From the NCBI RefSeq assembly GCF_000768065.1, contig NZ_JRKM01000001.1, forward strand, positions 3,268,001 through 3,332,000: DNA of 64,000 bases, written 5' to 3'. This document shows positions 1-13,087 of the stretch, in pieces; within the stretch, counting starts at the first letter, position 1; every line of letters starts with the position of its first letter. Source of the DNA: Aquabacterium sp. NJ1. Lineage in GTDB: Bacteria > Pseudomonadota > Gammaproteobacteria > Burkholderiales > Burkholderiaceae_C. The notes under the pieces were generated by a model. It was given only the letters and a program-made list of their open reading frames with translations, was not told where the DNA came from and searched no databases. The position numbers and the translations under genes are program-made.

Positions 1-321
1 TCCATCGAAGGTCAGATCTGATGCGGCTTTGGGCGCTTGCTCATTACGCAGGCGTTCCTCAAAAGCTGTGCGTTGCGATGGTAATGCCCTTTACCAGGGA
101 AAAACAGCCCGCCCCCACCTTTGTGGCCCTCGAACATCAAGATTTTTTGCGTTGAAACAGGGCTTGTACCGTCTTGGGGCATGTTTGGGCCTGTTGGTGC
201 ACACCGCCAGGGCCTGATTGGGCGGTGTCGCCGTTCTTCCGAAACCTGTCGTGAATGTTCTCTGCAGGCTTGGCCCAATTGGTGTTCAATCTGGGCTTTC
301 GCTGATTCTCCGGAGTAATTG
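1..321. other. Left window edge, no gene recognised
   Basis: I see no convincing gene here. Short open frames exist on both strands, but none has a recognisable domain or a good ribosome binding site. The stretch probably holds the end of an upstream transcription unit and the promoter of the flavin oxidoreductase gene that follows. No clear terminator hairpin is visible. Confidence 0.5.
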
Positions 322-1584
322 ATGACGCCTCAGGCTGTGCTGGCTCAACCGTTCACCCTGCCCAATGGGCAAGTGATCAAGAACCGTTTGTTCAAGTCTG
401 CGATGAGCGAGGCCTTGAGCGACCGCACTTGTGTGGCCACGCCGGAACTGGCCCGCTTGTATGGCGCCTGGGCGGACGGCGGCATCGGCTTGTGCGTCAC
501 CGGCAACGTGATGATCGACAAGCGCGCCCTGGGTGAGCCCGGCAATGTGGTCATCGAAGACGACTCGCATCTGCCGGCACTCAAGGCCTGGGCACAAGCA
601 GCCACACGCAACGGCACGCAATGCTGGGTGCAACTCAATCACCCGGGCAAGCAATCGCCCAAAGGCCTGAACAAGGAAACCGTGTCGCCCTCGGCCGTGC
701 CCTTCAGGCCCGAGATGAAGATGATGTTCGCCACGCCACGTGAACTCACGGAAGCCGAGATCCACGGCCTGATCCAGCGTTTTGCCAATGCCGCCGCCAT
801 CGTCAAGAAGGCGGGCTTCACGGGTGTGCAGATCCACGGTGCGCACGGCTACCTGGTCAGCCAGTTCCTGTCACCACACCACAACCGCCGCAACGATGCA
901 TGGGGTGGCACACCCGAGAAGCGCCGCCGCTTTGTGCTGGAGGTCTACCGCGCCATGCGTGAACAGGTGGGGCCGGACTTCGCCATCGGCATCAAGCTGA
1001 ACTCGGCGGATTTCCAGCGTGGTGGCTTCACTGAAGAAGAGTCGCTGGACACCATCCGCGCCCTGGCCGATGCCGGCATCGACCTGGTCGAGATCTCGGG
1101 TGGCACGTATGAAGCACCCGCCATGACCGGTGTGAAGGCCAGCAAGGAGCCCGTCAAGGAAAGCACGCGTCAGCGTGAAGCCTATTTCCTGGCCTTCGCT
1201 GAAAAGGCCCGCAAGGCCGTGAAGACGCCGCTGGTGGTCACGGGCGGCTTCCGTTCGGTGCGCGGCATGGCGGACGCCATCTCCTCGGGCGCGGTGGATT
1301 TTGTGGGCCTGGCGCGTGCGCTGGCCATCGAGCCCGATGTGCCCAAGCGCCTGTTGGCCGGGCAGGAGCCGCGCGAGCAGGTGCGCCCGCTCAAGACCGG
1401 CATCTCCTTCGTCGACAAGACCGGCTTGATGGAGGTGTCCTGGTACACCGGCCAGCTCAAGCGCATCGGCCGGGGTCAGGCGCCCAAGCCGCGTGAATCG
1501 GCCCTGTGGGTCTTCGTCAAGATCATGGCCCAGCAGGCGGGCCTGGGGCGCAAGAAGGCGCCCAAGCGGTTGCGCGCGACCTGA
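322..1584 (+). CDS. NADH:flavin oxidoreductase, old yellow enzyme family
   Basis: This 420-residue protein is an FMN-dependent ene-reductase of the old yellow enzyme class, predicted to be cytoplasmic and to use NAD(P)H to reduce activated C=C bonds. It is a TIM barrel. The family signature HGAHGYLVSQFLSPHHN followed by RxDxWGG lies near residues 172-196, and the late phosphate-binding segment VVTGGFRS is present. I chose ATG 322 because cggag lies 6 bases upstream; an in-frame TTG directly precedes it. The physiological substrate cannot be read from the sequence. The gene is followed by about 150 bases carrying a Fur box for the next operon, so it is probably a separate unit. Confidence 0.9.
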   Translation: MTPQAVLAQPFTLPNGQVIKNRLFKSAMSEALSDRTCVATPELARLYGAWADGGIGLCVTGNVMIDKRALGEPGNVVIEDDSHLPALKAWAQAATRNGTQCWVQLNHPGKQSPKGLNKETVSPSAVPFRPEMKMMFATPRELTEAEIHGLIQRFANAAAIVKKAGFTGVQIHGAHGYLVSQFLSPHHNRRNDAWGGTPEKRRRFVLEVYRAMREQVGPDFAIGIKLNSADFQRGGFTEEESLDTIRALADAGIDLVEISGGTYEAPAMTGVKASKEPVKESTRQREAYFLAFAEKARKAVKTPLVVTGGFRSVRGMADAISSGAVDFVGLARALAIEPDVPKRLLAGQEPREQVRPLKTGISFVDKTGLMEVSWYTGQLKRIGRGQAPKPRESALWVFVKIMAQQAGLGRKKAPKRLRAT

Positions 1585-1702
1585 GCCTTGGCCGCGATCG
1601 AGCTCGCGGTACCCCGTTTGATTTGAGCGTCAACCGCCCCTGTTCGCGGGGGTAGTTGACTGGCTTGCTGCGCCAGATCAAGGCAGGCGAATCAATAAAC
1701 AT

Positions 1703-1721
1703 GATAATGCGAACCATTGTC
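1703..1721 (+). promoter_or_regulatory. Fur box upstream of the peroxidase-porin-flavoprotein operon
   Basis: The 19-base sequence GATAATGCGAACCATTGTC matches the classical Fur box GATAATGATAATCATTATC at 15 of 19 positions and keeps both half-sites. It lies 18 bases before the ATG at 1740, where bound Fe-Fur would block transcription. A fur gene is present in the same window at 15530-15976. Iron repression of the operon is inferred, not shown. Confidence 0.8.
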
Positions 1722-1739
1722 ATTTAGATTCGCTTGAGC

Positions 1740-3035
1740 ATGACCCCCGCCTTGTACCCGCCCTCGCTGAGGGCAAGCTGGCGCCTGATCCTGGCGGCCG
1801 GCGCCAGCCTGATCCTGAGTGCCTGTGGTGGTGGCGGCGGTGGTGCGCCCTCGGGCAGTTCGTCGTCGACATCGCAGTCGGTGGGTTTGACGGCCACGGC
1901 GGCGCTGGGCGAGAAAATCTTCAAGGATCCCAGCCTGTCGCTCAACGGCAACCAGTCCTGCGCCAGTTGTCATGTGGCCGATCGCGGGCACGCCGGGCCG
2001 TTTTCGGCCGACCCTGCCCATGCCACTGAAACCGGGTCTGACGGGGTTTCGCTGGGCGGGCGTGTGGCGCCGTCCATCCGCTATCTTGTTTTCAACAACG
2101 TGCCTTTCGGTATTGACTCGGAGGGCACGGCCGCGGGTGGCTTCTTCTGGGATGGGCGTGCGGCGACGCTGGCCGAGCAGGGCAAAGGCCCCTTCCTGAA
2201 CCCCAAGGAAATGGCCAATGCCGATGTGGCCACGGTCATTGCCAAGCTGGCTGCCGCGACGTACGCCAACGAGTTCAAGGCTTTGTACGGGCAGGCTGTC
2301 TTCAATGATCCTCAAGCCGCTTTCGAAAAGGTCGCACTGGCCTTGCAGGCCTATCAAAAAGAGTCACCCGAGTTCACGCCGTTCAGCAGCAAGTACGACG
2401 CTTTCCTGCGTGGACAGGCCAGCCTGAGCGCCAGCGAATTGCGGGGGCTGGCCCTATTCAACACAAGAGACAGCGAAACGGACCCGAGCAAGAACAAGGG
2501 CAATTGCGTAGCCTGCCACCCCAGTGCCATTGGCAAGGACGGCAGCTTCCCCTTGTTCACCGATTTCTCCTACGACGCGCTGGGCGTGCCCCGGAACTGG
2601 AAGGTGGCCACCAACCCTGCTCAGTTCGATCTGGGGTTGTGCGACAACGGCACGGACACCATCAATGCCTTGAACGCATCAACCAAAGCCGCGTTGTGCG
2701 GCAAGTTCAAGGTGCCTTCGCTGCGCAATGTCGGCTTGCGCAAGGCCTTCTTTCACAACGGGCGCTTCACATCCTTGACCGATGTGGTGACCTTCTACGT
2801 GCAGCGCGATATCAACCCGGATCAGTTCTACCTGGATGCCCACAACCAGCCTGACGTCAAGTTCAATGACTTGCCCCCGGCCTACCGCGGCAACGTCAAT
2901 ACCACGGAGGGGCCCTATAACCGCGGCCCTGGTGACAACCCGGCACTCAGCCCTGCAGAGATCGCCGACGTGGTCAGTTTCCTGTGCACGCTGACAGACG
3001 GCTGGGCCGGCTCGGACCTGGCCTGCCAGCGTTGA
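1740..3035 (+). CDS. MauG-like di-haem cytochrome c peroxidase family lipoprotein
   Basis: This 431-residue protein belongs to the di-haem cytochrome c peroxidase/MauG family. An N-terminal hydrophobic segment ends in the lipobox LSAC, followed by a Gly/Ser-rich linker, so it is probably a lipoprotein facing the periplasm or outer membrane. Two c-type haem motifs are visible: CASCH with its first Cys near residue 74 and CVACH near residue 256. The family uses two haems to reduce peroxide or to oxidise partner proteins; which applies here is unknown. ATG 1740 was chosen because the signal peptide begins there; an in-frame TTG at 1734 is an alternative. It is the first gene of a five-gene run with tight spacing downstream. 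Confidence 0.88.
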   Translation: MTPALYPPSLRASWRLILAAGASLILSACGGGGGGAPSGSSSSTSQSVGLTATAALGEKIFKDPSLSLNGNQSCASCHVADRGHAGPFSADPAHATETGSDGVSLGGRVAPSIRYLVFNNVPFGIDSEGTAAGGFFWDGRAATLAEQGKGPFLNPKEMANADVATVIAKLAAATYANEFKALYGQAVFNDPQAAFEKVALALQAYQKESPEFTPFSSKYDAFLRGQASLSASELRGLALFNTRDSETDPSKNKGNCVACHPSAIGKDGSFPLFTDFSYDALGVPRNWKVATNPAQFDLGLCDNGTDTINALNASTKAALCGKFKVPSLRNVGLRKAFFHNGRFTSLTDVVTFYVQRDINPDQFYLDAHNQPDVKFNDLPPAYRGNVNTTEGPYNRGPGDNPALSPAEIADVVSFLCTLTDGWAGSDLACQR

Positions 3036-3100
3036 TGGCGCTCACCGCGCCACGACTTGCGCTTCCATTCAAACCCATCGAGCTAAACGGAACTTTTGTC

Positions 3101-4561
3101 ATGAACCAAGTGCATCGTCTTACCTTGCTGGCCGGCGCCTGCCTGAGCCTGTGTTCGGCTGCAGGCGCTGAGACCGCCGCCAGGCCATCCCACAAGGCCG
3201 CTATCAAGACGGCGGCAGCCGTGGCCGTGGCGCAGCCCTCTGCGCGCGAAGCCGAGTTGATGCAGCGCCTGGACAAGCTCGCTGCTGAAGTCGAGCAGCT
3301 GAAGTCGCAACTGGCCGAGGTCAAGCAACAGCAGGTTCAGCAAGCGGCTGCACCGCAGCCCGCAGCGCTTGCAGCGGCGCCGCTTGCCGCCACACCTGCA
3401 GCACCTGCTGCCGCGACCAACGGTGCGGTCAATGGCGCGATCAATGGCGCGATCAATGGTGTGGACAGCGTGGCGGGTGCGCCCACCGCCGAGCCTGCCA
3501 CCGTGCTGACCGGTTATGGCGAGATCAACTACAACCGCTACAAGGACGCCTCGCGCAACCAGGCCGATGTGCGCCGTGCGGTGCTGGGCGTGCAGCATCG
3601 ACTGGATGCCAAGACCAAAATCGTGACCGAACTGGAAGTCGAGCACGCGGTGAGTTCGGCCGACGACAAGGGTGAGGTGGAGATCGAACAGGCTTATGCC
3701 GAGCGCCAGCTCAATGACCGTTGGGCCTTGCGTGCAGGCCTGTTCCTGATGCCCTCGGGCTTGCTCAACGAGAACCACGAGCCCACGGCGTATTACGGTG
3801 TCGAGCGCAACTTTGTGGAAACCGCCATCATCCCCAGCACCTGGCGTGAAGGCGGCCTGCAACTGGTGGGCAACTTCGACAACGGCCTGACGCTGCAAGC
3901 CGGCTTGAGCACGAGCTTTGATGTGTCCAAGTGGCAAACAACCGGTGACGAGGCGCCTGAAACCGCCGAGTCCCCCCTGGGTTCGGTGCACCAGGAACTG
4001 TCGCAAGCCCATGCCAAGGATCCGGCCGTGTTCGTGGCCCTGAACTGGCGCGGTGTGCCTGGCCTGCAGCTGGGCGGTTCCTGGTTCTCGGGCAACGGTG
4101 GCCAGGGCCAGGCCGCGGCCGTGGGCAACAGCCTGCGCGTGACGCTTTGGGATCTGCATGCCCGCTACACCCTGGGCGCACTGGATCTGTCGTCCGTGTA
4201 TGCACGCGGCACGATCTCGGGCACGGCGGCTTTCAACACGATCAACATCGGCAGCGGCCCGGACTGGTTCCCCATCCCCAAGAGCTTCGATGGCGCCTAT
4301 GTGCAGGCGGCCTACAAGCTCTGGTCATGGGATGACCTGATCCTGTCACCCTTCGTGCGTGCCGAGCGCTTCAACACACGCAAGTCCTATGCTGACATCG
4401 GCCAGGGCCTGACGGCAGATGCCGCACCCACCGAGCGCGTCTACACCCTGGGTGCCAACCTGAACGTGGGCCAGGGCCTGGTCTTCAAGGCCGACATCCA
4501 GCGCTTCCAGCAGAACAAGGACAATAACCGTTTCGACCTGGGCCTGGGCTGGAGCTTCTGA
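3101..4561 (+). CDS. Outer-membrane porin-like beta-barrel with N-terminal coiled coil
   Basis: This 486-residue protein has a signal peptide (about residues 1-23), a charged heptad-like coiled coil near residues 48-78, an Ala/Pro-rich spacer containing NGAVNGAINGAINGV, and then an amphipathic barrel starting at LTGYGEINYNRY and ending in an aromatic C-terminus (LGLGWSF), as outer-membrane proteins do. The barrel resembles phosphate-selective porin O/P-like proteins. The coiled coil may trimerise it or reach the peptidoglycan. It lies 65 bases after the di-haem peroxidase gene and 2 bases before the flavoprotein gene, so it is probably cotranscribed. The substrate is unknown; an iron- or electron-transfer-related role is inferred from the Fur box and neighbours. 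Confidence 0.8.
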   Translation: MNQVHRLTLLAGACLSLCSAAGAETAARPSHKAAIKTAAAVAVAQPSAREAELMQRLDKLAAEVEQLKSQLAEVKQQQVQQAAAPQPAALAAAPLAATPAAPAAATNGAVNGAINGAINGVDSVAGAPTAEPATVLTGYGEINYNRYKDASRNQADVRRAVLGVQHRLDAKTKIVTELEVEHAVSSADDKGEVEIEQAYAERQLNDRWALRAGLFLMPSGLLNENHEPTAYYGVERNFVETAIIPSTWREGGLQLVGNFDNGLTLQAGLSTSFDVSKWQTTGDEAPETAESPLGSVHQELSQAHAKDPAVFVALNWRGVPGLQLGGSWFSGNGGQGQAAAVGNSLRVTLWDLHARYTLGALDLSSVYARGTISGTAAFNTINIGSGPDWFPIPKSFDGAYVQAAYKLWSWDDLILSPFVRAERFNTRKSYADIGQGLTADAAPTERVYTLGANLNVGQGLVFKADIQRFQQNKDNNRFDLGLGWSF

Positions 4562-4563
4562 AC

Positions 4564-5142
4564 ATGCGCTTCAAACTGATCGATGGGGCAAGTGCCTTGC
4601 CTGGTGTGGCTTTGGCGGCGGCTGCCTTGCCGGTGACGGCCTACGCCGTGGACTACATGACGCCCCAGCAGGCGCAGCAGGCCTTGTTCCCGCAAGCTGA
4701 TCGGTTCGAGCTGCGCGAGGTCAAGTTGTCTGCCACGCAGATGCAGGACATGGCCACACGCCTGGGGGTGCCCGCACGCTCGGCCCAATGGAAGCTGCTG
4801 GAGGCCACGCAGGCCGGCAAGCGCCTGGGCTGGGCGGTGGTCGACAACGTGGTGGGCAAGTTCGAACTGATCACGTATGCGGTGGGCATCTCGGCTGACG
4901 GCGGCATCAAGCAGGTGGAGATCCTGTCCTACCGTGAAAGCCATGGTGGTGAAGTGCGCCTGCCGGCCTGGCGCCAGCAGTTTGTGGGCAAGACCGTGCA
5001 GTCGCCCATCAAGGTGGGCAACGACATCGCCAACATCAGCGGGGCCACCTTGTCGTGTACGCACCTGACCGAAGGCATCAAGCGCATCGCCGCGGTGATC
5101 GACCTGGCCCGAAGCAGTGGCCAGCTTGGAGCCGGTGCGTGA
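4564..5142 (+). CDS. Secreted FMN-binding domain protein (covalently flavinylated)
   Basis: This 192-residue protein begins with a hydrophobic signal segment ending near AYA and carries one FMN-binding domain like those of NqrC and RnfG. The flavinylation motif SGAT is at residues 159-162, so Thr162 should receive FMN by a phosphoester bond. The next gene, overlapping by 4 bases, encodes the ApbE enzyme that performs this reaction, which strongly supports the assignment. It probably shuttles electrons between the small membrane protein encoded downstream and periplasmic acceptors. Start ATG 4564 lies 2 bases after the porin stop codon. Confidence 0.87.
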   Translation: MRFKLIDGASALPGVALAAAALPVTAYAVDYMTPQQAQQALFPQADRFELREVKLSATQMQDMATRLGVPARSAQWKLLEATQAGKRLGWAVVDNVVGKFELITYAVGISADGGIKQVEILSYRESHGGEVRLPAWRQQFVGKTVQSPIKVGNDIANISGATLSCTHLTEGIKRIAAVIDLARSSGQLGAGA

Positions 5143-5933
5143 GCATGTTTGCCGTGCCCCCGCTTGACGGGCACGGCTGGTTGAGGCGCGCCCGGCCCAT
5201 GCTGGGCACCTTGGTGGACATCGGCGTGCCGGCGGGCGCGGAGCAAGCCCTGCACGAGGCCTTCAGCGCCATCTGGCAGGTGCAGCAAACCATGTCGGTG
5301 TTCGAGCCGGGCAGTGACCTGTCACGCAGCCATGCGGCTGGCGTGGGCGAGCCGGTGCGCCTGCACCCCTGGACGGCCCAGGTGCTGCAACTGGCCCAGA
5401 CCTTGTCTGCTCAGACCGACGGCCTGTTCGATGTGGCCCTGGGCTCTGGCGCCTGGCAGTTGCAGGAAGATGGCGAACACACCGACCTGCTGCGCCTGAG
5501 CCCGGCCACCCGCCTTGACTTGGGCGGCCTGGCCAAAGGCTGGGCCGTGGACCGCGCGGTGGAGGCTGCGCTTGATCAGGGCGCCGAGGCCGTGTGGGTC
5601 AATGCCGGTGGCGACCTGCGCGTGCAAGGCCTGACGTTGCCCGTCGTCTTGCGTGACGAGTTGACGGGCGGCGTGCGCCCCTGGGCCGAGCTGGCAGACG
5701 GCGCCATGGCCACCAGCGATTTCAGGGCCGGGGCGCGTTCGGCATTGAGCGGCACGGTGCAGGCTGGCCACCTCAGCGTGGTGGCGCCCCAATGCGCCTG
5801 GGCCGATGCGCTGACCAAGGTGCTGGCGCAACAGGCGCCACAACTGCATGGGGCACAAGGCCTGGCGCACGATTTGCTGCAACACTATCAGGCTCAAGTC
5901 TGGGTTCACGACACGTCCACAAGCTCGCCATGA
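5139..5933 (+). CDS. apbE: FAD:protein FMN transferase, ApbE family
   Basis: This protein transfers FMN from FAD to a Thr/Ser of a client protein, here most likely the preceding FMN-binding protein. Family motifs visible in order are PMLGTLV near the N-terminus, DLGGLAKGWAVDRAVE, NAGGDLRV and the C-terminal WADALTKVL (equivalent of ADALST). At 264 residues it is shorter than typical ApbE (about 320-350) and shows no obvious signal peptide, so it may act before export or be a compact variant. I start it at GTG 5139, which overlaps the upstream stop in GTGA and has ttggag 7 bases before; ATG 5145 is an alternative. It overlaps the next gene by 4 bases. Confidence 0.88.
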   Translation: MSMFAVPPLDGHGWLRRARPMLGTLVDIGVPAGAEQALHEAFSAIWQVQQTMSVFEPGSDLSRSHAAGVGEPVRLHPWTAQVLQLAQTLSAQTDGLFDVALGSGAWQLQEDGEHTDLLRLSPATRLDLGGLAKGWAVDRAVEAALDQGAEAVWVNAGGDLRVQGLTLPVVLRDELTGGVRPWAELADGAMATSDFRAGARSALSGTVQAGHLSVVAPQCAWADALTKVLAQQAPQLHGAQGLAHDLLQHYQAQVWVHDTSTSSP

Positions 5934-6370
5934 AGCAACGCAACCGTCTCTCCCGCGCACAACGCCGCATGCTGTATGCCAGCACGGCGGCCCTGGTGTT
6001 GACCGGCTTGATGTGGCTGAGCGTGCACCAGCTGGCCTGGCCCGTGATGTCGCGTGCCAGCATGGAAGGCCTGCCCAGCCCTTGGGAGCCCTGGCTGATG
6101 AAGCTGCATGGTGCGGCCATGATGGTGATGCTGTTCATGGTCGGGCGCATCTCGTCCACCCATGTGATGCGGGGCCTGCGCCTGCACTGGCGCGTGCGTG
6201 ATGGCATCGGCCTGCTGGTGGGGGGCGCCTTGCTGGCCTTGACCGGCTACAGCCTCTACTACCTGATCCCCGATGACTGGCGTGATGCGAATGGCTGGGT
6301 GCACGCCGCCATCGGCACCCTGTGGGCGGCGACGCTGCTGTGGCACCGCCGCCGCCCGCCGGGCCGTTGA
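5930..6370 (+). CDS. Small four-helix membrane protein, DUF4405/cytochrome b-like
   Basis: This 146-residue protein has four predicted membrane helices (about residues 14-34, 55-77, 92-113 and 122-139) and histidines at 33, 60, 78, 86, 125 and 139, some placed in or at the edges of helices as b-haem ligands would be. It resembles small DUF4405-type membrane proteins found beside ApbE and FMN-binding proteins. The likely role is to pass electrons from the quinone pool or a dehydrogenase to the flavoprotein. Its ATG overlaps the apbE stop in ATGA, indicating translational coupling. Haem binding is inferred only. Its stop codon directly abuts that of the convergent terC gene. Confidence 0.65.
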   Translation: MKQRNRLSRAQRRMLYASTAALVLTGLMWLSVHQLAWPVMSRASMEGLPSPWEPWLMKLHGAAMMVMLFMVGRISSTHVMRGLRLHWRVRDGIGLLVGGALLALTGYSLYYLIPDDWRDANGWVHAAIGTLWAATLLWHRRRPPGR

Positions 6371-7339
6371 TCAACCCGCTGTCTTGCTGGGGCCGATGGC
6401 CGGTGCGGTCTTCACGCTCCAGATCATGGTGATGGCCAGGATGCCCATCACCACACCCAGCGAGGCCAGCACGGGGATCTTCACGATGTCGATCAGCATC
6501 ATCTTGCTGCCGATGAACACCAGGATCACGGCCAGGCCATAACTCAGCAGGTGGAATTTGGCTGCCATCGCCGCCAGCAGGAAGTACATCGCACGCAGGC
6601 CCAGGATGGCAAAGATGTTGGACGTCAGCACGATGAACGGGTCGGCCGTGATGGCGTAGATCGCGGGGATCGAGTCCACCGCAAAGATCACGTCCGTGAA
6701 GCCGACCAGGGCCACGACCAGCAGCAGCGGGGTAGCAATGCGCACGCCGTTCTGCCTTGTCCACAAGCGTTCACCGTCAAAGTGCTTGCTCACGGGCAGG
6801 ATGCGGCGCAGCAGCTTGAGCGCCGGGTTGTCTTCCAGGTTGGGCTCCTTGTCTGCAGCCCACCACATCTTGATGCCGGTGAGCAGCAGGAAGGCGCCAA
6901 ACACATACAGCACCCAGTGGAACTGCGCGATCAGCCAGCCACCGACCAGGATCATCGCCGTGCGCAGCACGATGGCCCCGATGATGCCCATCATCAGCAC
7001 GCGCTTCTGGTAGGCCGGCGGCACCGAGAAGTAGGTGAAGATCATCAGGAAGACAAAGATGTTGTCGACCGCCAGGGACTTTTCGATCAGGTAGCCGGTG
7101 AGGAACTCAAGTGCCTTGGTTTGGGCGATGACGTTGCCTTGCTCTTGCGCAAAGGCCCACCACAACAGGCCATTGAAGGCCAGGCTGAGCGCCACCCAGA
7201 TGGCCGACCAGCGTATGGCCTCCGGCACGCTCACTTCATGGGCGCCTTGTTTGCGCAGGACGACAAAGTCCACGAACAAGGCGGCGAGTACGAACAAGAC
7301 GAAAACGATCCAGAGCCAGAGTGGCGCCAGGGTTTGCAT
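6371..7339 (-). CDS. TerC/Alx family integral membrane protein (Mn2+ export type)
   Basis: This 322-residue polytopic membrane protein belongs to the TerC family (E. coli Alx, B. subtilis YkoY/MeeF), whose members export manganese or metallate exoenzymes. The two inverted-repeat motifs with membrane-embedded acidic residues are clear: KSLAVDNIFVF in the first half and FTDVIFAVDSIPAI in the second. The start ATG 7339 follows ggag by 7 bases. A yybP-ykoY riboswitch lies immediately upstream, consistent with induction by manganese. The gene is convergent with the flavoprotein operon with no bases between the stop codons. Confidence 0.9.
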   Translation of the reverse strand: MQTLAPLWLWIVFVLFVLAALFVDFVVLRKQGAHEVSVPEAIRWSAIWVALSLAFNGLLWWAFAQEQGNVIAQTKALEFLTGYLIEKSLAVDNIFVFLMIFTYFSVPPAYQKRVLMMGIIGAIVLRTAMILVGGWLIAQFHWVLYVFGAFLLLTGIKMWWAADKEPNLEDNPALKLLRRILPVSKHFDGERLWTRQNGVRIATPLLLVVALVGFTDVIFAVDSIPAIYAITADPFIVLTSNIFAILGLRAMYFLLAAMAAKFHLLSYGLAVILVFIGSKMMLIDIVKIPVLASLGVVMGILAITMIWSVKTAPAIGPSKTAG

Positions 7340-7394
7340 GGTGGTTCTCCAAAAGGAACATTCATGGCGAAGCCGACATGGCTTCGCACCTCAA

Positions 7395-7530
7395 GCGCCG
7401 AAAAATCTTGCTGGACAGACGGGCGTCTGCTGTGAACCCCGGAAGAGCCTGCATTGCACAGGCCTTCGTGTTGACGGGGTGACACCGCAACCCTGACGGG
7501 CTGCGCGCTACTCCTCTTTCGGACAGACGG
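7395..7530 (-). promoter_or_regulatory. yybP-ykoY manganese riboswitch upstream of terC
   Basis: On the minus strand this leader carries the hallmark GAGGAGTAGC loop (7506-7517), a central CCCGTCAACA segment and the downstream TCTTCCGGGG segment that define the yybP-ykoY motif. The 10-mer CCGTCTGTCC occurs twice, at 7521-7530 and 7413-7422. Both copies can pair with the intervening GCAGACGC (7423-7430), which gives an obvious switch between the closing stem of the aptamer and a downstream hairpin. A further 8-bp hairpin (7367-7387) sits just before the ribosome binding site. Boundaries are approximate. Confidence 0.85.
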
Positions 7531-7600
7531 ATTCTAGCCGGGGTGGGCTTTGCCCCCGTGCGGTGTAAGGATTTGAGGCGAGCCTGCTGGCCGGGCGGCT

Positions 7601-9247
7601 TCAGCTGCCGCCGTTTTCCTCGCGCATGTCTTCGCGCTGCTGGCGCTGCCAGGTCTTGAGGCGCGACTCCATCACGCTCAACTCGACCACATCGGCCGCA
7701 TTCGGCTGGCGGAAGCGCTTTTGTGCGCCCTGGATGCGGTCGATGGCACCGGGCAGGTCGCCCAGGGCGGCGGCGGCTTCGGCCTCGGCCCGCACGGCGC
7801 GCAGCGGCTCGCCCAGGCGTTGCCACAACTCGCCCAGCACGGCCCAGGCTGCGGCATCGTGCGGGTGCACGCTGACATGGGTCTGCAGCCGCGCGGCCGC
7901 ATCGGCCCAGGCCGATTGCTGTGCGCGCCCTTCAGGCAGGGACAGCGCAATGTGCGCGGCCAGCAGCAACTCGGGACGTGCATCCGCATGCGCCGCGACG
8001 CGGTTGTCGGCCAGTTCGCGGTTGAGCGTGGCCGCGGCTTCAGTAGGTTGGTGCGCAATGAGCTGGTTGTCCACCACCGCCAGCGACAGCACACGTTCCG
8101 CCATGGCCTGCTGGCCCGTGGGCAAGCCCCGCGCCGACTGACGCGCCTGGTTGAGCAGGGCCAGGCCTCGTGTGGCGTCACCACTGCGCTGGGCGGCCAG
8201 GCCGGCGGTGTAGTAGGCGGCCACGGCCTGCAGCGGCGTGGCACCCTTCTTGATATCGGGGTTGGCCAGGTTTTGCAGCGACACGCTGCGGGTGTCCATC
8301 AGCACCTTGGCACGCGCCGCCATCAGCGTGTGCTGGGCCCAGATGGCCGAGTCATGCCCGGGGCTTTGCTCGGTGGCCACGCGCCAGCCGCCCGGGCCCA
8401 GGCGGGCATGCGCCTCGCCAATGCGCTCGGTGGTCAGTGGGTGGGTGCGCAGGTAGGGGTAGCTGCCGTCATCGTTCAGGCGCGAGGCCTGCTGCAGGTG
8501 CTCAAACATCTCGGCCATGCCGGCCTGATCAAAGCCTGCTTCGCCCAGCACGCCAAAGCCCACGCGGTCGGCTTCGCGTTCCATGTCGCGCGAGAAGTTC
8601 AACTGGCCTTGCACCGCCACGGCCTGGCCACCATAGATCATGGCCTGGGCGGCTTGCGGGTTGCGGCTGGCCGCCAGGATGCCCAGCACCATCGAGGCCA
8701 GGCTCACCCACGACTGTTTCGATTGCTGCCCGATCATGCGGGCGATGTGCCGCTGCGTCACGTGGGACAACTCGTGCGCCAGCACCGAGGCCAGCTCATC
8801 GGGCGTGCTGGTCATGGCCAGCAGGCCCAGGTGCACACCGATGTAGCCGCCAGGCAGCGCAAAGGCGTTCACCGTGCGGTCGCGCACCAGGAAGGGCTCC
8901 CAGGCGTGCGAGGCCTCCAGCTCGGGGCCGATCTCGCCGCGCTGCTTGGCGCCGGCGATCAGCCTTGCCCAGACCTGGCCGATGTACTCCAGCACCAGCG
9001 GGTCGTCCACCACATCCGGGTCGCGCAGGATGGAGCGCATGATGCGGTCACCCAGGCGGCGCTCGGCCATCGGCGACAGTTCTTGCGAGGCCGCATCACC
9101 CAGGGCCGGCAAGGGCGACGAGCTGCTGGGCGCGGGGGCGTCCTGCGCATGCACCGACAAGCCCAGGGGCCAGCCCAGCAGGATCAAGGCCGCAATGCGC
9201 CAGCGCGACAGCGTGGCACCGGAGGGTTGTCGAAGGGTCAAGGGCAT
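7601..9247 (-). CDS. Periplasmic M48 zinc metalloprotease with TPR domain (BepA-like)
   Basis: This 548-residue protein resembles BepA/YfgC, which controls the quality of outer-membrane proteins in the periplasm. It has a signal peptide (residues about 1-33 ending VHAQ), an M48 protease domain with the zinc motif HELSH at residues 158-162 and the downstream EADRVGFGVL glutamate, and an Ala-rich helical C-terminal half consistent with TPR repeats. I start it at ATG 9247, where the signal peptide begins; longer in-frame openings reach 9364 but add no signal sequence. It is divergent from moaC. Confidence 0.9.
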   Translation of the reverse strand: MPLTLRQPSGATLSRWRIAALILLGWPLGLSVHAQDAPAPSSSSPLPALGDAASQELSPMAERRLGDRIMRSILRDPDVVDDPLVLEYIGQVWARLIAGAKQRGEIGPELEASHAWEPFLVRDRTVNAFALPGGYIGVHLGLLAMTSTPDELASVLAHELSHVTQRHIARMIGQQSKQSWVSLASMVLGILAASRNPQAAQAMIYGGQAVAVQGQLNFSRDMEREADRVGFGVLGEAGFDQAGMAEMFEHLQQASRLNDDGSYPYLRTHPLTTERIGEAHARLGPGGWRVATEQSPGHDSAIWAQHTLMAARAKVLMDTRSVSLQNLANPDIKKGATPLQAVAAYYTAGLAAQRSGDATRGLALLNQARQSARGLPTGQQAMAERVLSLAVVDNQLIAHQPTEAAATLNRELADNRVAAHADARPELLLAAHIALSLPEGRAQQSAWADAAARLQTHVSVHPHDAAAWAVLGELWQRLGEPLRAVRAEAEAAAALGDLPGAIDRIQGAQKRFRQPNAADVVELSVMESRLKTWQRQQREDMREENGGS

Positions 9248-9378
9248 GAACACAAACCGGGTGAACTGAGTGCGCAGTATGCTGCGAACCATGCGTGCTT
9301 GGACGGCGGAATCACCCACAGGTTCAGGCACTTGAATTTCTTTACCCGCCCTAGCTGGGGGCACATTGGCGATTTTCC

Positions 9379-9858
9379 ATGAGCGAGCTCACCCATTTTG
9401 ATCAACAGGGCCAGGCCCACATGGTGGACGTGTCCGACAAGGCCGCCACGACGCGCGTGGCCGTGGCTCAAGGGCGCATCGTCATGTTGCCCGCGACCTT
9501 GGCCTTGATCGCCGAAGGGCGTGCGGGCAAGGGCGATGTGCTGGGTGTGGCGCGCATCGCGGCCATCCAGGGCGCCAAGCGCACGGCGGACCTGATCCCC
9601 CTGTGCCACCCGCTGGCGCTGTCCAAGGTGGCCGTCGAGTTCGAGCTGGATGAGGCGGCGTCGGCCGTGATCTGCCGCGTGACGGTGCAGACCGTGGGCC
9701 CCACCGGGGTCGAGATGGAGGCCCTGACCGCCGTGCAGGTGGGCCTGCTCACCATCTACGACATGTGCAAGGCCGCTGACCGCGGCATGGTCATGACCGA
9801 TGTTGGCTTGCTGGAGAAGGTGGGCGGCAAGTCCGGGCATTGGGTGCGCCAGCCTTGA
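9379..9858 (+). CDS. moaC: Cyclic pyranopterin monophosphate synthase MoaC
   Basis: This 159-residue enzyme completes the first step of molybdenum-cofactor synthesis, converting the MoaA product to cyclic pyranopterin monophosphate. The family segments [32 protein letters not shown] and the catalytic [10 protein letters not shown] block are present and the length is typical. It stands alone here, with no other moa gene nearby. The start codon ATG 9379 overlaps the divergent upstream region of the M48 protease. It converges with the ligase gene, whose stop lies 13 bases away. Confidence 0.96.
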
Positions 9859-9871
9859 TCCCGGTCCGAGC

Positions 9872-11671
9872 TCAAGGCAACAGTTGCTTCCAGGTGTAGC
9901 TCTGCTGCGGCGGTTCGCACTGGAAGGGGGGCTCTTCACCCGGTTCCGGTTGGGTCTTGCACACGGACAGGAACTCGTCACCCAAGGGGTTGCGGAACTC
10001 CTTGAGGCGCTGCACCACATAGCGCCCCTTGTCCACCTGGCCATGCTCGGCCAGTGAGCGGGCATAGGCGGTCATCAGTCGGGCATCCAGCAGGTTGTGC
10101 AGCGTGCGCTTGAAGGCCTCGGGCGGCTTGCTGGGGTCTTCGTCTTCCAGGCTGGTCACGTCCGCGTAGTCGGCCTGGTAGCCCCACCAGGGCATCTTCT
10201 TGCCGAATTCGATGCGCTGGTCCAGCGGGCCGGCGCCGGCTCGGGGTGCGTAGATGTTGACGGCAGCCTGGTAGTCGGCTGCACACCAGACGGCCAGCAA
10301 GGCCATGATCACGCCGCCCGCCAGCATCGACGGGCTGGTGCGGCCAGAGGCGGCGGCTGCCGGCTCACTGCGGGTACCCGATTGCGCGGCCAGCCCGGCA
10401 CCCCATGCAAACGCCGTGGGCAGCAGGAAGTAGCTGTACCAGAGTGGGTACTCCAGCAGGCTGTGCAGGGCCGCGATGGCGACGATCACCGCGCACGCGC
10501 CCACCGTCGAGCGCGTGGGTTGCCCCTGGGCATCGAACTCGTCACGCAGCAGGCCGCTGAACAAGGCCTTGAGGGCCAGCAGGCACAAGGCCAGCAGCAG
10601 CACCGTCAGGGGGATGCCGAACTCCACGGCCCATTGCAGGGGCAGGTTGTGGGTGTGGTCGAAGAAGGCGATCGGACGGGTCGGGAAGGGCGTCAGCGTC
10701 CAGGCCACATTGAACTCGCCATAACCCACGCCCAGCCAGGGGTTGGCCTTGATCATGTCCAGCACATTGGCCCAGATCTTGAAACGCGAGCTGGAGATGT
10801 CGCTCTTGTCATGCAGGCGCGCCTCGGCGGCGAACGTCACGTTCTTGTCTGCGTGCGCCAGGAGCCACATGCCGCCCCAGAACAGCAGGTAGATCAGCGG
10901 GGCGCCCACCAGGGTGATGCGCAGCAGGCGGGGCAGGCGCCGGTCGAGCACGCCCCACAGGGTCAGGAAGGCCATGCCGATCATGCCGGTGCGCGAGGCC
11001 GTCAGTACGATGCCCCAGATGAACAGGGTGATCAGGCCGGAGGCCACCCAGGCCGGCAGCCGCTGGCGTGCGCCCAGCCAGGCCGCGCCACAGCACGAGA
11101 ACACCAGCAGGGTGCTGAAGTGATTGGGTTGGCGCAGGTTGCCCACCGCGCGGCCCGGCATGGTGGGCTCGGCAATCAACAGGCCATCGGCCCAGGCTGG
11201 GTGGAAGGCTTGCACCAGAGCCAGCACCATGCCGACGCAACCGGCTGCCGTCAGGGCGCCAAAAAAGGCCTCCAGGACGGCATCCTGGTCCTGGCTGCTG
11301 GCGCTGCGCCAGCCTGCCCAGAGCACCAGCAGGGCCGCCAGGCTCATGCCGCTGCCCATCATGCCCAGCCCGGCGGGCAGTTGCCCCCACACAAAAGCAG
11401 ACCCCAGCGCCTCTGCGGCCAGGATGAGCAGCACGGCGCTCAGGCAGCGCAGGGCCATGCCGGCAGAGCCCTGTGCACCCGCCCGGGGCAGCCCGGCCAG
11501 CACGGCGACAAACAGCCCCCAGCCCAGCACGGCCAGGGCCTGGTTGTAGAACGTCACAGAGGGCGGCTCGTGGACCGCCAGCAGGGTCGGGGCCAGCACG
11601 GCCAGCAGGCCGAATGACCACCACAGCGGGCGATGGCGAACAGCGGAATCTTCAGAGGCGGGCGTGATCAT
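9872..11671 (-). CDS. PglL/Wzy-type O-oligosaccharyltransferase or O-antigen ligase
   Basis: This roughly 599-residue polytopic membrane protein has about 12 hydrophobic helices, the N-terminal segment HEPPSVTFYNQALAVLGW typical of PglL_A-type pilin glycosylation ligases, a periplasmic loop near WLGVGYGEFNVAW and HTHNLPLQWAVEFG (ligase histidine), and a C-terminal soluble Wzy_C_2-like part. Such enzymes transfer undecaprenyl-linked glycans to pilin or other proteins. The start is uncertain: ATG 11671 fits the first helix, and ATG 11719 is possible. No other glycan-synthesis genes are adjacent, so the acceptor cannot be named. Confidence 0.8.
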   Translation of the reverse strand: MITPASEDSAVRHRPLWWSFGLLAVLAPTLLAVHEPPSVTFYNQALAVLGWGLFVAVLAGLPRAGAQGSAGMALRCLSAVLLILAAEALGSAFVWGQLPAGLGMMGSGMSLAALLVLWAGWRSASSQDQDAVLEAFFGALTAAGCVGMVLALVQAFHPAWADGLLIAEPTMPGRAVGNLRQPNHFSTLLVFSCCGAAWLGARQRLPAWVASGLITLFIWGIVLTASRTGMIGMAFLTLWGVLDRRLPRLLRITLVGAPLIYLLFWGGMWLLAHADKNVTFAAEARLHDKSDISSSRFKIWANVLDMIKANPWLGVGYGEFNVAWTLTPFPTRPIAFFDHTHNLPLQWAVEFGIPLTVLLLALCLLALKALFSGLLRDEFDAQGQPTRSTVGACAVIVAIAALHSLLEYPLWYSYFLLPTAFAWGAGLAAQSGTRSEPAAAASGRTSPSMLAGGVIMALLAVWCAADYQAAVNIYAPRAGAGPLDQRIEFGKKMPWWGYQADYADVTSLEDEDPSKPPEAFKRTLHNLLDARLMTAYARSLAEHGQVDKGRYVVQRLKEFRNPLGDEFLSVCKTQPEPGEEPPFQCEPPQQSYTWKQLLP

Positions 11672-11836
11672 GGCCGCTATTGTCGCGGCAGATCGGGCTG
11701 ACGCCGGCGAGGCGCTCATCCCAAGCTCGCCACAGATGGCCACAGGTCGCCACAATAGGCCCGCCGCAACAAGGTTGAACAAAAGCGTCGACACTGTCGG
11801 GCCGCGTCACCATCTGCCCTCCATCCTGACATCGCC

Positions 11837-13087
11837 ATGAGCTCCAGCGCTTCGACGGCCACCTCCGTGCCCTCCACCCTGATGGTGCGTGAGCGCCTGC
11901 TCCTGTGGAGCCTGGCCGCCGTCAACTTCACGCACATCGTCGACTTCATGGTGATGATGCCCTTGGGCCCGCAACTCACGAAGCTCTTTCATGTGAGCGA
12001 TGCCGAGTTCGGCTTGCTGGTCTCGGCTTACTCGCTGGCCGCCGGCCTGTCGGGCCTGATGGTGTCCATGGTGATCGACCGCTTCGAGCGCAAGCGTGCG
12101 CTGCTGCTGGTGTACGCAGGCTTTGCCGTGGCCACGCTGGCCTGCGGTCTGGCGCCGACTTATGGCGCCTTGTTGGCAGCACGCGTGGCCGCTGGTGTGT
12201 TTGGTGGCGTGCTGGGTGCGCTGGTGCAGACCATCGTGGGTGATGCCGTGCCTTTCGAGCGGCGCGGCCAGGCCATGGGGTTGGTGATGTCGGCGTTTTC
12301 GATGTCCACGGTGGCCGGCGTGCCCCTGTCGCTGTGGCTGGCCAGCCGCTGGGGCTGGCACATGCCGTTTTTTGCCATCGCGGCCGCCTCGGTCGTGGTC
12401 TGGCTGACGGCCTGGCGCTCGGTGCCCTTGCTGCGCAGTCACATGACGGGCGTGTCGGCCCAGCCGCCCATCACGCAACTCAAGCGCGTGCTGGCCGAAC
12501 CCAACCACTGGCGGGCCTTTGCCTTGTCCATGCTGATGCTCTCGGGCAGCTTCAGCATCATCCCTTACATCACGATCTACACGACGGCCAACGTGGGCTT
12601 GAGCCAGGCGCAGGTGCCCTATGTGTACTTTGCAGGCGGCGTGGCCACGCTGTTCACGGCCCGCCTGTGGGGGCGCCTCACCGACCGCTGGGGCAAGGTC
12701 TTCATGTTCCGTGTGATCAGCGTGCTGGCCGTGTTGCCCATGCTGGCCTTGACCCATCTGCCCGTTGTCGCCCTGCCGGTTTTGCTGGTCGTCACCACGG
12801 CATTCTTCGTGTTTGTCTCGGGCCGCATGGTGCCGGGCATGGCCTTGCTGACCGCGGCGCCCGAACCCTCGGTGCGCGGCTCGTTCATGAGCGTCAACGG
12901 GGCCTTGCAATCGGCCGCCATGGGCGTGTCGGCGTGGGTCGGCGGGCTGATGATCTCGCGCACCCCGGATGGCCTGGTGCAAGGCTATGGCCGGGCCGGC
13001 TGGCTGGCGCTGGTGACCACGCTGATCATGGTCTGGTGGGTGGGCCGCCTGCGCCTGCATACACAGCCTGCGGCGGCTCGTGGGTGA
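11837..13087 (+). CDS. Major facilitator superfamily transporter
   Basis: This 416-residue protein has about 12 predicted membrane helices. The MFS loop motif between helices 2 and 3 appears as IDRFERKRALLL (variant of GxxxDRxGRR), and RLTDRWGKVFMF is its counterpart in the second half. It resembles drug:proton antiporter or sugar-efflux-like members with the N-terminus FTHIVDFMVMMPLGPQL. The substrate is not predictable. It is divergent from the ligase gene and is followed by 239 bases containing the hpf upstream region. Confidence 0.88.
   Translation: MSSSASTATSVPSTLMVRERLLLWSLAAVNFTHIVDFMVMMPLGPQLTKLFHVSDAEFGLLVSAYSLAAGLSGLMVSMVIDRFERKRALLLVYAGFAVATLACGLAPTYGALLAARVAAGVFGGVLGALVQTIVGDAVPFERRGQAMGLVMSAFSMSTVAGVPLSLWLASRWGWHMPFFAIAAASVVVWLTAWRSVPLLRSHMTGVSAQPPITQLKRVLAEPNHWRAFALSMLMLSGSFSIIPYITIYTTANVGLSQAQVPYVYFAGGVATLFTARLWGRLTDRWGKVFMFRVISVLAVLPMLALTHLPVVALPVLLVVTTAFFVFVSGRMVPGMALLTAAPEPSVRGSFMSVNGALQSAAMGVSAWVGGLMISRTPDGLVQGYGRAGWLALVTTLIMVWWVGRLRLHTQPAAARG

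Follow-up and report, generated by a model that had tools for sequence, protein, structure and literature searches.

Flavinylation, control by Fur and iron reduction have already been linked, and Fur repression has been reported in Shewanella and Caulobacter (PMC8238504). In the closest described systems, the PepSY-like/DUF2271/ApbE clusters, a flavinylated periplasmic carrier, ApbE and a haem-type membrane protein come together under Fur repression, and the function proposed in that account is the reduction of iron (PMC8238504). DUF4405 cytochromes encoded with apbE are also known; the domain binds haem b and is described with six membrane helices (PMC11334425). Here, we analyze a five-gene operon of Aquabacterium sp. 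NJ1 that resembles the PepSY-like/DUF2271 clusters in these respects, but in which a Pfam scan finds neither of these two domains; it has its own porin, an FMN_bind carrier predicted to bear flavin mononucleotide (FMN), a probable four-helix cytochrome and a di-haem peroxidase (Table 1). The operon lies at positions 1703 to 6370 of the window, by which we mean the whole stretch of 64,000 nucleotides that was analyzed (contig NZ_JRKM01000001.1, positions 3,268,001 to 3,332,000), from a genome of 5.0 Mb. With a probability of roughly 0.5, we propose that this operon is a Fur-repressed module for assimilatory ferric iron reduction and that the di-haem peroxidase plays an accessory part, confined to one branch of the family, and does not form the end of the electron transfer chain. 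The gene set, motifs, synteny, conserved Fur-like sites and linkage to FeoB were all computed.

Of 399 genomes sampled from the order, 70 were matched by a profile of the FMN-binding protein at an E-value of 1e-15, and the match was strong in 60 of the 399. We classified 120 flavoprotein-positive loci, the window included, with hidden Markov models built for this analysis; ten known duplicates had been removed beforehand, and some genomes are represented by more than one locus (two or three). The set does not include two fragments at contig ends and seven genomes that matched less strongly, and four enterobacterial loci (L071-L074) fell below the cut-off. The flavoprotein, ApbE and the probable cytochrome b occur together in 99 of the 120 loci. 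The order DUF6662 barrel, FMN protein, ApbE and cytochrome b is found in 43 loci, and the order di-haem protein, porin, FMN protein, ApbE and cytochrome b in 23. The di-haem gene is present in 28 loci, always with the porin (28/28), and all five families are found in 25 of these (with one gene of L083 and one of L085 broken into two frames); the porin occurs without the di-haem gene in 19 loci, and a DUF6662 barrel takes the first place in 52. The remaining 92 of the 120 loci showed no di-haem gene, a few of them being cut by contig ends; its absence means little in five, because these start near a contig end. Thus, the synteny on which an earlier note on this DNA had made its proposal depend is conserved, both for the core trio (99/120) and for the di-haem and porin pair (28/120). 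The same counts tell against that note's placing of the outer-membrane haem protein at the end of the chain, given a core trio that recurs in most loci, a di-haem gene unseen in 92 and a DUF6662 version that is Fur-marked without it. We also rejected the idea that the whole family centres on the haem protein as its core enzyme, since that protein was not seen in those 92 loci.

In a maximum-likelihood tree of 117 flavoproteins, 27 of the 28 that come from di-haem loci fall within one supported group of 31 (99/92). The other four members of this group belong to porin loci without a di-haem gene (in one, L124, the contig ends there), and the 28th di-haem flavoprotein, from a Nevskiaceae metagenome-assembled genome (MAG; L052), lies outside it. 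The di-haem label needs five changes on this tree, and the gene may have joined the operon once, with later losses or a transfer. The operon is also plasmid-borne in Ideonella dechloratans, where it follows TonB-receptor and two-component genes and has a Fur-like site of 12/19. As to the genes in first place, DUF6662 proteins (for example L146 711-1652) are of unknown function in Pfam and head a Fur-marked flavinylation operon; our literature search found no paper on DUF6662. A TIGR03118-family gene stands in the di-haem gene's place, directly 5' of the porin, in two loci (L158 3691-5058 and L160 8534-9910); no functional hint was obtained for it in either, and the protein of L158 has a Tat-type signal.

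The Fur box of the window, GATAATGCGAACCATTGTC, agrees with the consensus, GATAATGATAATCATTATC, at 15 of 19 positions and is the sole site scoring at least 14 on either strand of the window, the next two scoring 13. A degenerate version of the box core, to which the operon's own box has no mismatches, occurs with at most two mismatches at four places in the genome (at none when the pattern is reversed). One of the others begins 39 bases 5' of a gene for an FTR1-cytochrome c protein (L168), one begins 60 bases 5' of bfd (L169) and the last is in L170. A single FUR-family protein was found in the genome, encoded within the window, and Zur, Mur or PerR is therefore unlikely. Among 27 di-haem operons, which include the window and the identical pair L047/L157, 19 have a site scoring at least 13 (shuffled expectation 1.0; 12 of 251 control windows) and 16 a site scoring at least 14 (expectation 0.2; controls 4/251); when the window, L031, L032 and L157 are dropped, the figures are 16/23 and 13/23. 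For the DUF6662 operons they are 33/51 (expectation 4.0; controls 25/471) and 23/51 (expectation 0.5; controls 5/471), the control windows being random, mainly coding, stretches of the same loci. The degenerate core, allowing two mismatches, is found in 22/27 di-haem operons as against 0/256 control windows and in 29/51 DUF6662 operons as against 3/468, a test that is partly circular for close relatives because the window's box itself supplied the pattern. Where a locus begins with the porin and has no di-haem gene, a site scoring at least 13 is present in 5/8 cases and the degenerate core in 4/8. The box lies 5' of the first gene and its motif is shared with known iron genes, as expected of a Fur regulon member. 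Conserved sites, a single FUR-family protein and the same motif before bfd and FTR1 speak for Fur control of the operon, which the earlier note had proposed and which, as a prediction from sequence, is supported by computation. Two further observations concern these sites. In L168 (4903-6846) the FTR1 iron permease and a cytochrome c domain are fused in one protein, with the Fur-like site just 5'. In L089, L144 and L150 the gene order differs, cytochrome b coming before the flavoprotein; an outer-membrane gene was not recognised in these loci, and no site scoring at least 13 lies upstream.

A link to ferrous iron finds support in the distribution of FeoB. The stretches fetched for the loci (3.8-13.7 kb, mean 12.1) include a gene for FeoB in 5 of 120 cases, for a rough expectation of 0.3; these are L041 and L112 (di-haem), L146 and L134 (DUF6662, both of family f44) and L158 (porin type), in which the operon is followed by feoB, feoA, fur, a ferritin-domain gene and bfd. 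Moreover, FeoB is present in 50 of the 60 genomes that match the flavoprotein strongly and in 171 of the 339 others (p 1e-6), or in 55/70 against 166/329 at the loose cut-off, both comparisons ignoring kinship; KdpA, taken as a control, is present in 20/60 and 106/339 (p 0.76). Of di-haem genomes, 14/16 in the first sample and 8/9 in the sample of the order have FeoB, three genomes being common to both. In E. coli, porins and FeoB belong to a single route for ferrous iron (PMC7315122), and the pathway proposed here would resemble this OmpC-FeoB path in joining a porin and FeoB in an iron path without TonB; it differs in that, as far as that account goes, E. coli has no dedicated porin-reductase operon.

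The flavoprotein of the window is the only FMN_bind protein found in the genome. Its SGAT motif occupies residues 159-162, Gly160-Ala161-Thr162 being kept in 35/35 aligned flavoproteins, and the earlier note had correctly placed the predicted flavinylation site at Thr162. An ApbE gene is accompanied by an exported FMN_bind protein with an [ST]GA[ST]-type site, and covalent attachment is predicted. By simple hydropathy, 113 of 117 flavoproteins have a hydrophobic N-terminal stretch, and 101 of 102 ApbEs have none before their LGT motif, a count made with no leader-bearing ApbE as positive control; in 44 ApbEs the frame leaves at most 15 residues before this motif. The ApbEs of these operons therefore do not conform to the usual exported, lipid-anchored type. 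Most characterised ApbEs are exported lipoproteins; one belonging to a soluble fumarate reductase is cytosolic (PMC12052999).

An inner-membrane electron carrier, implied in the earlier note, is supported by the fifth protein (146 residues), which has four invariant His residues (His60, His78, His125 and His139) in 32/32 aligned homologues. In a model with a mean predicted local distance difference test score (pLDDT) of 88, it has four main helices, of which 52-85 and 115-141 carry two of these His each, and is probably a two-haem cytochrome b. The similar depth of the His in each pair, together with positive charge at the N-terminus, in the loop between helices 2 and 3 and at the C-terminus, would place one haem near each membrane face. 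The best fold match is the E. coli hydrogenase-1 cytochrome b (probability 0.99, E 0.15); it is supportive only, none being found at E 0.001. The label DUF4405-like, given previously, does not hold for the window protein, which has only a sub-threshold DUF3185 match in Pfam; of six homologues scanned, five match DUF4405 below the cut-off and one just passes for Ni_hydr_CYTB. Like the DUF4405 cytochromes found with apbE, this is a small membrane protein with four conserved His, encoded next to apbE; unlike them, as they are described, it is modelled with four main helices and has no DUF4405 match (PMC11334425).

The porin model (mean pLDDT 69) consists of a helix at 48-82, a disordered linker and a barrel of 16 strands by manual count; its nearest solved folds are OmpC-like porins, the top 23 also including OprP and OprO, and a search of solved structures by sequence gave nothing convincing. 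A porin-cytochrome conduit was considered and rejected, the barrel being an ordinary one of 16 strands and the operon having only two haem c motifs. A barrel of this kind likewise lends no support to the outer-membrane haem protein as the end of the chain. Conduits of the MtrCAB type hold a multihaem cytochrome inside a large barrel of about 26 strands; the operon differs from these by its two CxxCH motifs and by a barrel modelled, with moderate confidence, closest to ordinary porins.

The electron path, its direction, the substrate and the role of the haem protein are given here as we infer them. When iron falls, Fur would leave the box and the operon would be made. Small ferric chelates would diffuse in by way of the porin that the operon encodes. 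Electrons from the quinol pool or from a cytoplasmic donor would enter the four-helix cytochrome b and pass the cytoplasmic-side haem, then the periplasmic-side haem, to the FMN attached by ApbE to Thr162; the flavoprotein would reduce Fe(III) to Fe(II), and FeoB, or the FTR1 permease, would carry Fe(II) inward. The di-haem lipoprotein would most likely use electrons of the same flavoprotein to remove hydrogen peroxide (H2O2) beside fresh Fe(II), a guarding role proposed because it fits the activity of BthA. With less assurance, we consider it possible that the whole amounts to a dedicated, hitherto undescribed, TonB-independent ferric reduction pathway under Fur control, with its own pore, a minimal four-helix two-haem cytochrome b and a flavinylated periplasmic reductase feeding FeoB. 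One lineage would have added a peroxidase arm, and ApbE would act in the cytoplasm, ahead of the export of its substrate.

Several observations count against assimilatory ferric reduction. A haem-rich operon is costly under iron starvation, ApbE and the flavoprotein are apparently on different sides of the membrane, and the fold match of the cytochrome is weak. Loci that do not begin with an outer-membrane gene have Fur-like sites near background, 3/29 in both tests (controls 11/268 and 2/269). The association with FeoB leaves kinship out of account, and 10 of the 60 strong-match genomes are without FeoB, five of them in family f30; 6 of the 8 loci fetched from these five have no outer-membrane gene. 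Nor was FeoB found in the di-haem genomes G252 (95% complete), G009 (82%) and G049 (65%).

The di-haem protein itself lends some weight to another explanation, a peroxide-removal chain in which the cytochrome b and the flavoprotein feed the di-haem peroxidase, either protecting iron-starved cells or respiring H2O2. Its best solved relatives are BthA (6nx0, 5e-69) and MauG (4e-50). A lipobox Cys-Gly, both CxxCH motifs, Glu157, Tyr353, Cys301 and Cys320 are invariant in 19/19 aligned members; Gly after the lipid Cys is, as a rule, a mark of outer-membrane lipoproteins, and this location is suggested here by the lipobox. Read with the numbering of PMC6405878, the alignment equates Glu157, Tyr353 and Cys301/Cys320 with Glu277, Tyr463 and Cys415/Cys430 of BthA, so that the two CxxCH motifs, the Tyr ligand, the catalytic Glu and the two disulfide Cys of BthA are shared by all 19. 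BthA is a good H2O2 peroxidase (PMC6405878), its catalytic Glu has an invariant counterpart, and the di-haem gene comes first in its operons. However, the Fur-marked core persists without this gene in most loci, and the FeoB linkage points to iron; we consider a peroxide-removal chain rather unlikely.

Less probable again is a MauG-like maturation, in which the di-haem enzyme would oxidise residues of a partner, perhaps the porin, and so build a metal-binding or redox site. The invariant Tyr, an axial ligand of the kind found in MauG and BthA, and the occurrence of the di-haem gene only with the porin would agree with it, but the porin occurs without the di-haem gene in 19 loci and the inter-haem Trp of MauG (Trp137 in the window protein) is not conserved among the 19 aligned members, although BthA is without it too (PMC6405878). 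From MauG proper the protein differs also in having no mau-type neighbours among the genes scanned. It differs from BthA in being a lipoprotein of a Fur-boxed porin and flavin operon, adjoined by the OYE-family and porin genes, whereas a phosphatase adjoins BthA in the published description (PMC6405878); moreover, Ser257 of BthA is replaced by Trp in the window protein and its near relatives. The di-haem profile matches 25 genomes of 100 relatives at 1e-40. The 14 matches below 1e-175 are all in flavoprotein genomes, many of which built the profile, and the best match outside flavoprotein genomes (G066) is at 1e-157.

Alternatively, the flavoprotein might, when iron is short, substitute for iron-containing periplasmic electron carriers and feed general reductases, an iron-sparing role suggested for flavinylated carriers generally (PMC8238504). 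To this we give equally little credence, as the operon's own products include a c-type di-haem protein, a probable b-type cytochrome and a dedicated pore, and the linkage to FeoB would be left without explanation. That the core handles the redox state of envelope copper, for which one could cite a P-type ATPase and a MerR-family gene directly 5' of the DUF6662-flavoprotein operon in Roseateles puraquae (L048 2561-4935) and the multicopper oxidase and ferritin-like genes that flank the flavoprotein, ApbE and a cytochrome-b-like gene on a Methylocystis heyeri plasmid (L174 1-9473), is very improbable given the Fur-like sites and the FeoB association across many families.

Ferric reduction thus being the reading we prefer, the family is a compact Fur-marked candidate for a ferric reductase supplying FeoB; to our knowledge, few such periplasmic enzymes have been identified. 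It also offers a probable, very small, flavinylation-associated cytochrome b and a partner function for DUF6662 barrels, and it raises a puzzle as to where ApbE acts, these enzymes having no signal peptide and their substrate having one. No paper on this gene set appeared among the matches listed in our search of open-licence PubMed Central papers, and the words 'porin' and 'peroxidase' have no occurrence in the main text of PMC8238504 and PMC11334425. Some members may be included in the DUF4405 counts of the flavinylation surveys (cut-off E 0.001). The apparent novelty lies in a Fur-marked set that recurs, includes a dedicated pore and a smaller cytochrome and, within a single lineage, adds a BthA-like peroxidase.

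Table 1. Coordinates of the operon's features and of fur in the window
Feature	Position	Strand	Basis
Fur box, 15/19	1703..1721	+	consensus match; same motif family 5' of relatives
BthA/MauG-type di-haem c lipoprotein	1740..3035	+	CCP_MauG 1.6e-38; BthA 6nx0 5e-69; invariant residues 19/19
CxxCH motifs of the di-haem protein	1959-1973, 2505-2519	+	
Porin: signal peptide, coiled-coil-type helix, linker, 16-strand barrel (model)	3101..4561	+	Porin_O_P 2.7e-6; model pLDDT 69; fold search
Exported FMN-binding protein	4564..5142	+	FMN_bind 3.2e-8; alignment; hydrophobic N-terminus
SGAT, predicted flavinylation site (residues 159-162, Thr162)	5038..5049	+	Gly160-Ala161-Thr162 in 35/35
ApbE-family flavin transferase without signal peptide	5145..5933	+	ApbE 5.8e-27; hydropathy
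Four-helix membrane protein, probable two-haem cytochrome b (His60, 78, 125, 139)	5930..6370	+	His 32/32; model pLDDT 88; weak fold match
Fur, single FUR-family protein found in the genome	15530..15976	-	

The five genes stand in tandem 3' of the Fur box and on the same strand, with intergenic distances of 65, 2 and 2 bp and an overlap of 4 bp between the final pair; a Fur box followed by five tightly spaced genes, as first described, is confirmed. Starts were chosen by spacing and by comparison with relatives: the di-haem gene is taken to start at ATG 1740 (an in-frame TTG at 1734 is the alternative), and longer in-frame starts exist for the porin, ApbE and the last gene. A scan for promoters and terminators gave nothing above chance, and an Rfam scan of window positions 1-12000 gave zero matches. 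Elsewhere in the genome there are two other flavinylation sites, a PepSY-flavodoxin reductase gene followed by apbE (L182 4161-6365, apbE after) and a group of DUF3570, apbE and thioredoxin-like genes (L183 5269-7337); neither stretch has a Fur-like site scoring at least 14. The ApbEs of these two sites are likewise without a hydrophobic leader stretch, and a leaderless ApbE is therefore not peculiar to the operon. The nearest named record with the full locus is an Aquabacterium MAG (L031), its FMN protein being 86% identical. An OYE-family gene lies 5' of the operon (319-1584) and a TerC/Alx gene converges on it from the 3' side (6371-7339). With same-genome copies (L075-L081 and L100) excluded, L031 and L032 are the only other loci in which the former adjoins the operon, and the latter does so again in L031, L032, L035, L037 and L039; because their recurrence is confined to so few loci, we take both genes to be neighbours and not part of the operon.

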